DNA from: Anaerolineae bacterium
Lineage (GTDB): Bacteria; Chloroflexota; Anaerolineae; Promineifilales; Promineifilaceae
Assembly (NCBI GenBank): GCA_023954475.1
Contig: JAMLHW010000006.1
Location: 1-64,000 of the forward strand
DNA length: 64,000 nt
Reading direction: 5' to 3'
The translations under genes were made by a program, and so were the position numbers. The notes beneath the pieces are model-generated. The model was not told the origin of the DNA and searched no databases. It saw only the letters and a program-made list of their open reading frames with translations. Below are positions 10,222 to 12,566 of this stretch, one piece after another. The first letter of the stretch is position 1. Every line of letters begins with the position of its first letter.

Positions 10222-11736
10222 ATGTCAACATTAGAAATCCCCAGCGAACTCAGTCACAATCAGCGCTTGCTCGATTATGTGCGTCCGGCAGAGTGGCAAA
10301 ATCCGACGCCAAACGGACGTTATAACTTCGTTGTCATTGGCGGTGGCAGTGCCGGTTTGATCGCTGCATCCGGTGCCGCCGCTATCGGCGCCAGGGTTGC
10401 GCTGATCGAGAAAAACTTCCTCGGCGGCGACTGTCTCAATGTCGGCTGTGTGCCGTCGAAGGCTTTGTTGCGGGCCGCTAAAGTGGTCGGTGAGATTGAT
10501 CGCGGGCGTCACTTGGGTATTGCAGTAGATGGGCTTTCGGCCGATTTTGATGCCGTCATGGACCAGGTGCGCAAAGCTAGAGCCGAGATCGCCCCGCACG
10601 ATTCAGCGCAGCGTTACCAGAAGCTGGGTGTCGATGTTTATTTCGGCGATGCGCATTTTACTGGTGAAAACATGCTGCAAATCGACGGACAAACGGTCGA
10701 GTTCAAAAGAGCATTGATTGCGACCGGATCGCGCCCAGCTTCGTTACCCATTATCGGTTTGGCTGAGGCAGGTTATCTGACCAACGAGACATTGTGGAAT
10801 GTCAAAAACCAGCCTGAGCAGCTTGCGATCATCGGCGCCGGCCCGGTTGGCGTCGAAATGGCGCAGGCGTTTCAGCGCTTGGGTACGCAAGTTACACTGT
10901 TTGACTTTGAGCCGCGCATTTTGCCGCGTGAAGACGCGACGGCGTCAGCCCTACTTGCCGATGCGTTGCTGCGCGACGGTGTTGTGTTGAAATTGGGGAG
11001 TGAGATTGGCCGTGTTTCGGCCGAAAATCATGGCAAACGCATCGAATATGAGCAAGATGGCGAAGCACACAGCATGATCGTCGATGAAATTCTGGTTGCC
11101 GCCGGGCGTGCACCTAATGTCGAAGGGCTGAAGCTTGAAAATGCCGGCGTCAACTTCGATGATGACGGCATTGTCGTTGACGATCACTTGCGGACGAGCA
11201 ATCCCGCTATCTACGCGGCTGGAGACGTTGCGATGACGCACAAATACACGCATGTTGCTGGTCACGCCGGAGCCATCGTCGTGCAAAATGCGCTGTTTCC
11301 AGCTATCAAGCGCAAAGCGAGCAGCCTGATCGTCCCCCGTGTCGTTTACACCGATCCCGAAATTGCCCATGTCGGCCTCGATTCGCTCGCGGCAGCGGAA
11401 CGAGGCATCGCCATCGACATGTACACGCAATCATTTAGTGGCGTTGACCGCGCCGTTACCGACAGCGAAACAGAAGGCATGATCACAGTTCACGTCAAGC
11501 GAGGCAGCGACAAAATCGTCGGTGCGACCGTCGTCAGTCGCGACGCCGGAGAGTTGATGAGCCATATCACGATGGCGATGAAGTACAATATCGGCCTGAG
11601 TAAGATCATGATGGTTGTCTTTCCCTATCCGACGCAGGCAGAAGTGCTGCAAAAAGTGGCCGGTCAGTACAATCGCACGCGTCTAACGCCAACACTTAAG
11701 CGCATCCTCGACTGGTGGATGGCAGTCACGCGCTGA
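10222..11736 (+). CDS. Pyridine nucleotide-disulphide oxidoreductase (MerA / dihydrolipoamide dehydrogenase type)
   Basis: 504 aa. FAD-binding GGGSAGLIAA at about 40-49, redox-active disulphide CLNVGCVPSK (near 73-82), NAD(P)-binding GAGPVGVEMAQAF, the second FAD motif IYAAGDVA, and a C-terminal dimerisation domain with MAMKYNIGLSKIMMVVFPYPTQAEVLQK. The first 33 or so residues are an extension before the flavin fold. It resembles the broad mercuric reductase-like branch, but the terminal Cys pair of true MerA is missing (the C-terminus is KRILDWWMAVTR). No mer genes are nearby, so mercury reduction is unlikely; the substrate is unknown. One TCGGCCGA lies in the leader (about 10182). Confidence 0.88.
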   Translation: MSTLEIPSELSHNQRLLDYVRPAEWQNPTPNGRYNFVVIGGGSAGLIAASGAAAIGARVALIEKNFLGGDCLNVGCVPSKALLRAAKVVGEIDRGRHLGIAVDGLSADFDAVMDQVRKARAEIAPHDSAQRYQKLGVDVYFGDAHFTGENMLQIDGQTVEFKRALIATGSRPASLPIIGLAEAGYLTNETLWNVKNQPEQLAIIGAGPVGVEMAQAFQRLGTQVTLFDFEPRILPREDATASALLADALLRDGVVLKLGSEIGRVSAENHGKRIEYEQDGEAHSMIVDEILVAAGRAPNVEGLKLENAGVNFDDDGIVVDDHLRTSNPAIYAAGDVAMTHKYTHVAGHAGAIVVQNALFPAIKRKASSLIVPRVVYTDPEIAHVGLDSLAAAERGIAIDMYTQSFSGVDRAVTDSETEGMITVHVKRGSDKIVGATVVSRDAGELMSHITMAMKYNIGLSKIMMVVFPYPTQAEVLQKVAGQYNRTRLTPTLKRILDWWMAVTR

Positions 11737-11864
11737 CATTACATGTGGATGGATCGTTTTTTGATCGGGCAATTAGTCGGGTACGTTTGTGATCCCGGAG
11801 CGTTGGTGTCGCCCTTCGGCCGAAAATGACGTACCATTGACCAAACTCGTTTCTGGAGTACACC

Positions 11865-12566
11865 ATGACGACCGATGACTTGTTGGCGAGCTACAACTAC
11901 GATGCCTTTGTTCCCGAGAAATTTGGACCGTGGATGCGCTTTCACGAAAGCCCGCCGCTGTGGGAACGTGCACCTGATTTTCCTTTGTGGCATCTGGATG
12001 GTTCCGAAACGCGATTGAGCGCCATTTTTGCACAAAACCAGTACACGGTGGTCGAATTCGGCAGCTTTACCTGACCGTATTGTGGGATGGCGGCGCCATC
12101 CATGAATGCAATCGCGGCACAATACGCCGCACAGAAGATTGGGTCGATTTTTCTCTACACGCATGAAGCACATCCCGGCGAACACTACCCGCACATCACC
12201 TCGTTTGCACAGAAATTGCGCCATGCACAGGCGTTGCGCACTATCTATGGGGTCAATCGGCCGATTTTAGTCGACGCGCTCGACGGTGCATGCCACCGGG
12301 CTTACGGCAGTATGCCCAACATGACCTGGATTTTTACCCGTGCCGGATTGCCGATCTACAAATCCGACTGGACTGATTCCGATAGCGTCGCTAATATGCT
12401 CGATTACCTCGTGACGATTCGGCAACGACGCCGTGATGGGGAACGCGTTGCCCCGTTTCACGTCGAGCGCATTGATTTCCGCACCAAAGATCAGGATGGA
12501 TTTTACGTTGGTCTGACGCGCAACGGCTCCAAAGCGGTGCGTGAATTTGATGAAGCGTTTGAATAA
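11865..12566 (+). CDS. Deiodinase-like thioredoxin-fold protein, probable selenoprotein (UGA at codon 70)
   Basis: Reading from ATG 11865 (TGGAG about 8 bases upstream), the frame meets a single TGA at 12072-12074 and then continues open in the same frame to the stop at 12566: 233 residues in all. The residues around the TGA read VVEFGSFT-[UGA]-PYCGMAAPSM. Iodothyronine deiodinases have FGSxT-Sec-P at exactly this place, and further family features follow: LYTHEAHP (compare IEEAH in animal enzymes) and ILVDALDGACHRAYGSMPNMTWIF. A hairpin fitting the bacterial SECIS pattern lies directly downstream. I therefore read the TGA as selenocysteine. The natural substrate is probably not thyroid hormone; bacterial members are likely general thiol/selenol redox enzymes. 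Alternatives: a broken gene or a sequencing error (TGC to TGA). Confidence 0.8.
12085..12101 (+). promoter_or_regulatory. Candidate bacterial SECIS hairpin
   Basis: Perfect 7-bp stem GGATGGC / GCCATCC with apical loop GGC (12092-12094). The loop begins 17 bases after the UGA (12072-12074). The known bacterial SECIS pattern asks for a stem-loop with a G in the first two loop positions and about 16-37 bases between UGA and loop; both hold. Confidence 0.65.

Follow-up and report, generated by a model that had tools for sequence, protein, structure and literature searches.

A deiodinase-like gene of a Chloroflexota bacterium that almost certainly encodes a selenoprotein

A gene at 11865-12566 of the window, i.e., the whole 64,000-nucleotide stretch of DNA analysed here, contains a single in-frame TGA (12072-12074), which raises the questions of whether this codon is read as selenocysteine (Sec) and what kind of protein would result. 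Apart from the TGA, the frame is open over 233 codons, and when 11865-12563 is translated with TGA as Sec, a protein of 233 residues without any further stop is obtained, in which Sec70 lies in the context EFGSFT-U-PYCGMAA. Comparison with seven relatives shows purifying selection before and after the TGA (dN about 0.17-0.28, dS saturated or above 1.3). An earlier note on this DNA had described one TGA at the Sec position of deiodinases with the frame kept on either side, and this was confirmed by the translation, by the TGA in relatives and by the dN/dS values. The features of the gene are as follows.

11854-11857, + strand: GGAG, a ribosome-binding-like sequence 7 bases 5' of the ATG, read from the sequence
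11865-12566, + strand: predicted deiodinase-like selenoprotein gene, 233 aa with Sec70, TAA stop at 12564-12566
12072-12074, + strand: Sec70 codon, in-frame TGA; TGA in 71 of 77 aligned family members
12081-12083, + strand: Cys73 codon, second half of U-P-Y-C; Cys in 67 of 77 aligned members

When the window protein was scored alone against Pfam, it reached 25.3 bits for T4_deiodinase (PF00837, cut-off 27) and 34.6 bits for Redoxin (cut-off 26.6), and its AhpC-TSA score was also above the cut-off. The PF00837 search of its own genome gave no match, even to the 11865-12566 gene, and this was not read as absence because the protein scores just under the cut-off. T4_deiodinase matched 49 of 50 family members at E values up to 0.001 (best 7e-21), and the NCBIfam model deiodinase_rel matched all 50 members scanned. 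Searched against all PDB chains, the family profile placed mouse Dio3 (1e-19) and then Dio2 (1.9e-15) on top. The AlphaFold2 model, calculated with Cys substituted for Sec (pLDDT 97), was closest in fold to Dio2 (Z 19.1 over 157 residues, 1.9 A) and Dio3 (Z 18.6), with thioredoxins and peroxiredoxins at 15.3 or below. The deiodinase relationship proposed in the earlier note is supported by Dio3 and Dio2 leading both rankings. One further stretch of the protein aligns with Dio3 and Dio2.

12156-12194, + strand: Y98-x-x-E101-A-H103-P-G-E-H-Y-P-H110, matching the edge of deiodinase loop D and the proton relay

The proton relay of Dio2 consists of Ser127, Thr129, Tyr157, Glu160, His162 and His182 (PMC11592359), and its counterparts in the window protein are Ser67, Thr69, Tyr98, Glu101, His103 and His110, where the pairing of His110 with His182 depends on how the alignment is read through a loop that differs in length. 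Among 77 members these residues are found in 72, 76, 74, 73, 76 and 60, respectively; His103 together with Pro104 is near invariant, and Tyr98 and Glu101 are conserved in at least 90%. We are highly confident that the gene product is a Sec-containing deiodinase-like protein.

A rival reading is a Sec-containing peroxiredoxin or redoxin, which would reduce peroxides and be deiodinase-like in looks only. Redoxin and AhpC-TSA pass their Pfam cut-offs while T4_deiodinase falls just short, the fold is a common one with peroxiredoxins at Z about 13-14.6, and the Dio enzymes have a peroxiredoxin-like module of their own (PMC11592359). However, Dio3 and Dio2 come clearly first by family profile and by fold, residues 63-70 read VEFGSFTU and contain no PxxxT/SxxC motif, and the deiodinase EAHP relay is near invariant, so that a peroxide-reducing enzyme appears possible but rather unlikely. 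A general thiol-disulphide oxidoreductase, using U-P-Y-C as thioredoxin uses CxxC, would be consistent with the position of UxxC at the start of helix 71-90 of the model, as in thioredoxin-fold oxidoreductases, and with ResA-type proteins being the next structural neighbours. ResA works in an exported location, and the window protein shows no sign of export: the N-terminus MTTDDLLASYNYDAF is not hydrophobic. Relay residues that thiol exchange does not need are, moreover, kept even in homologues lacking both Sec and Cys, and we regard an oxidoreductase of this type as improbable.

One scan of species genomes gave 64 related loci, mainly from Chloroflexota (Anaerolineae, Caldilineae) and a few from bins labelled Planctomycetota, Acidobacteria, Latescibacterota and Neomarinimicrobiota; copies without a readable Sec70 position were incomplete or frame-shifted. 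The description of bacterial deiodinase-like selenoproteins as few in the earlier note was thus an understatement. All readable UxxC relatives (about 65 genes, mostly of Chloroflexota) have TGA at the Sec70 codon and none has Cys, and no in-frame stop other than this TGA occurs in them. Since a Cys form would have fitted the search pattern FTCPYCGM more readily, the absence of Cys is informative at this distance. Homologues were present in 19 of the 400 genomes searched in the phylum, and in the more distant members added in this way the Sec70 position was mostly TGA, with Cys, Ser, Gly, Asp or Ala in the remainder. When the tree was calculated with the Sec70 column left out, the UxxC branch was all Sec and the non-Sec residues fell in a separate, deeper group, which also included selenoprotein forms with UPPF and UPIT.

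Several of these homologues deserve separate mention. Five distant ones (L095, L096, L098, L099 and L104) carry neither Sec nor Cys at the site but Gly, Ser, Asp or Ala, and mostly keep the EAHPG-type relay, which suggests, as far as sequences can tell, paralogues without selenium or thiol chemistry. Two from Chloroflexota (L094, L097) have the site FGS(I/V)T-U-PPF, as in animal deiodinases, followed by a SECIS-like hairpin of other sequence. A Cys homologue (MGSITCPLF) lies on a contig filed as viral (L130:5001-5540), which might be a piece of host DNA or might carry the gene as cargo. On contig JACRBQ010000036.1 the family gene occurs twice, as L054 and L007, at a distance of about 33 kb, and in L054 the frame is slightly disrupted right after the TGA. 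The search for signs of mobility of the family gene turned up no record from phages and a single distant match on a plasmid, and hence no sign of a mobile gene.

Reading of UGA as Sec in bacteria is directed by a hairpin (SECIS) soon after the codon, with a G in its small apical loop, and such a hairpin was found.

12085-12101, + strand: predicted bacterial SECIS hairpin, stem GGATGGC (12085-12091) / GCCATCC (12095-12101), loop GGC (12092-12094)

The stem is a perfect 7 bp; 10 bases lie between it and the TGA and 17 between the loop and the TGA, exactly as the earlier note had described. A perfect hairpin of 7 bp and a 3-nt loop at that offset follows only one of 2,327 TGAs on both strands, as compared to 0.03 per strand in shuffled windows, and the folding energy of the region was equalled by 0.2% of 5,000 synonymous recodings. 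Across 49 distinct sequences, 93% of the pair cells were standard and six of the seven pairs showed changes on both sides; the structure came from one of these 49 sequences, which somewhat favours the percentage paired and leaves the compensatory change unaffected. None of 500 shuffles matched any of the pairing measures, and a shift of the partner by 1-3 columns abolished the signal. Ranked by synonymous constraint among the 55 closely related genes, codons 74 and 76-79, which form the hairpin, took the top five places out of 85 degenerate codons. The hairpin is retained even where the coding sequence is wholly different, e.g., UPPFVARVSP in L097; in distant Sec members with other coding sequence it is slightly shifted in register, and some loops are GGT or GGTC. 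It did not fold cleanly in L045 and L050, and stable folding was also seen in the non-Sec members L099 and L100, so energy alone does not separate the Sec and non-Sec classes. A 'relaxed' SECIS scan gave about as many matches as expected by chance, and such a scan alone is therefore no evidence.

The machinery for Sec insertion, for which the earlier note had proposed a search, is all present in the window genome (5.12 Mb, 98% complete): selA (546 bits), selB (354 bits) and selD (370 bits) each score above the curated cut-off, and ARAGORN found a tRNA-SeC gene (selC) with anticodon tca. The selD gene (L082:1531, C12) likewise encodes a selenoprotein, its UxxK site reading SCAG-U-ASK with TGA for U. 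One genome with a TGA copy (G217; 86% complete, 1040 contigs) had no selA above the cut-off and no tRNA-Sec. Because Sec use is common in the phylum, with selA above the cut-off in 11 of 13 genomes with TGA copies versus 4 of 5 with non-Sec copies only, the presence of selA or tRNA-Sec does not discriminate between the two and is consistent with Sec reading only.

The remaining explanation, in which the TGA terminates translation owing to a pseudogene, a sequencing error or a strain mutation, and the 159-aa ORF given by the standard reading from ATG 12087 is a separate or decayed product, is hardly credible and in effect refuted at the sequence level, since the identical TGA is found in dozens of independent assemblies from several phyla, purifying selection acts on the gene on either side of it, and the hairpin shows covariation. 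The comparative results on the Sec codon, together with those on SECIS, machinery, profile, fold and relay, support the interpretation of the earlier note, and the gene is almost certainly a true selenoprotein gene of a Chloroflexota bacterium, with TGA predicted to be read as Sec at the active site. In genes of this kind, standard annotation would drop the first third of the protein along with its catalytic residue.

Bacterial deiodinase-like selenoproteins have figured in surveys for two decades and, to our knowledge, have never been characterised in function. By analogy with deiodinases and thioredoxin-fold selenoenzymes, the following mechanism is the likeliest. SelB carrying Sec-tRNA-Sec would bind the hairpin just past the UGA and the ribosome would insert Sec70, giving a presumably cytosolic protein whose predicted thioredoxin/peroxiredoxin-type fold is that of the catalytic core of animal deiodinases. 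The Sec70 selenolate would take an electrophile off an oxidised or halogenated small substrate, a class suggested by the same analogy, while the relay of Ser67, Thr69, Tyr98, Glu101, His103 and His110 would supply the proton. The oxidised selenium would then be resolved by Cys73 as a Sec70-Cys73 selenenylsulphide, which could be reduced by a thioredoxin-type or flavin disulphide reductase. Animal deiodinases are re-reduced via cysteines elsewhere and external thiols (PMC11592359). We give this detailed cycle, from selenolate reduction to the selenenylsulphide, about even chances. Peroxides, haloaromatics and disulphides are all candidate substrates as far as the sequence goes; since the deiodinase-specific relay has been kept, a reaction in which proton delivery has to be directed is the more likely. 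On the speculative side, and with a low probability in our judgement, the family might be a bacterial selenium-dependent reductive dehalogenase (e.g., of iodo- or bromo-phenols or halotyrosines) that retains the ancestral chemistry of thyroid-hormone deiodination, has a built-in resolving Cys in UxxC and is obligately Sec in Chloroflexota. The clade offers a large Sec-only set of soluble proteins with an intact deiodinase relay, so that whether deiodinase chemistry is older than thyroid hormone could be tested in vitro.

The neighbouring genes were inspected for a redox partner, and one candidate lies upstream.

10222-11736, + strand: FAD/pyridine-nucleotide disulphide oxidoreductase, PRK06370/MerA-like (NCBIfam NF004991, 690 bits, cut-off 620)

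It is a possible but unproven redox partner. A homologue with 50% identity adjoins the family gene in L019, but adjacency of a flavin reductase is sporadic and missing in most loci, including that of the closest relative, L001. A gene for a VTT-domain (DedA/TVP38-like) membrane protein is the downstream neighbour in nine loci (L018, L024, L017, L022, L027, L031, L034, L048 and L055), sometimes followed by a flavin disulphide reductase. In five relatives (L002:4286, L004:4334, L007:4346, L021:4338 and L033:4340), the gene directly upstream is of the DUF3179 type and has an in-frame TGA too, in the context VTW-U-P-I/L-C-Y-T, with a conserved GC-rich, hairpin-like stretch behind it, i.e., tandem selenoprotein genes; the window genome has three DUF3179 genes, none with a TGA. 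The flavin reductase, the VTT-domain protein and the DUF3179 selenoprotein each recur, but since the neighbourhoods vary by clade and L001 shares none of them, no operon partner is claimed.

As compared to known systems, the gene is a new member of a family that is already known, and its novelty is limited accordingly. Deiodinase-like bacterial selenoproteins were first reported from the Sargasso Sea in both Sec and Cys forms (PMC1088965), and 'deiodinase-like, PF00837, UxxC' appears in the tables of predicted bacterial selenoprotein families of 2022 and 2026 (PMC9312934, PMC13188914). The UxxC motif is thus not special to this gene, as it is published for the bacterial family (PMC13188914, PMC9312934). 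With the PF00837 domain, Sec in UxxC and a bacterial SECIS in common, the window gene probably belongs to this family or to a clade of it, compared by description; unlike the Sargasso set of Sec and Cys forms, its clade as sampled is Sec-only, and the member comes from a Chloroflexota genome. No report tying the family to Chloroflexota was found in the open-access papers that the search covered. NF038285 (deiodinase_rel) is the top NCBIfam match of the window protein, but at 52 bits against a cut-off of 250, and only positions 173-324 of the 347-residue model align. Peroxiredoxins and redoxins (PF00578, PF08534) share the superfamily fold and significant Pfam scores with the window protein, which lacks PxxxTxxC and has the deiodinase relay instead. 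The animal deiodinases DIO1-3 share the fold, the FGSxT-U-P site and the Ser/Thr/Tyr/Glu/His/His relay, and thyroid hormone is not expected to be the substrate of the window protein. In contrast to DIO1-3, no membrane segment is apparent in the window protein: on reading the sequence no hydrophobic stretch that could serve as an N-terminal anchor was found, and the model opens with a short helix (3-10). The window protein also has a shorter loop D, a bacterial instead of a eukaryotic SECIS, Cys three residues past Sec where Dio2 and Dio3 have Phe, and an additional C-terminal region with a conserved R-x-G-P-K-A stretch.
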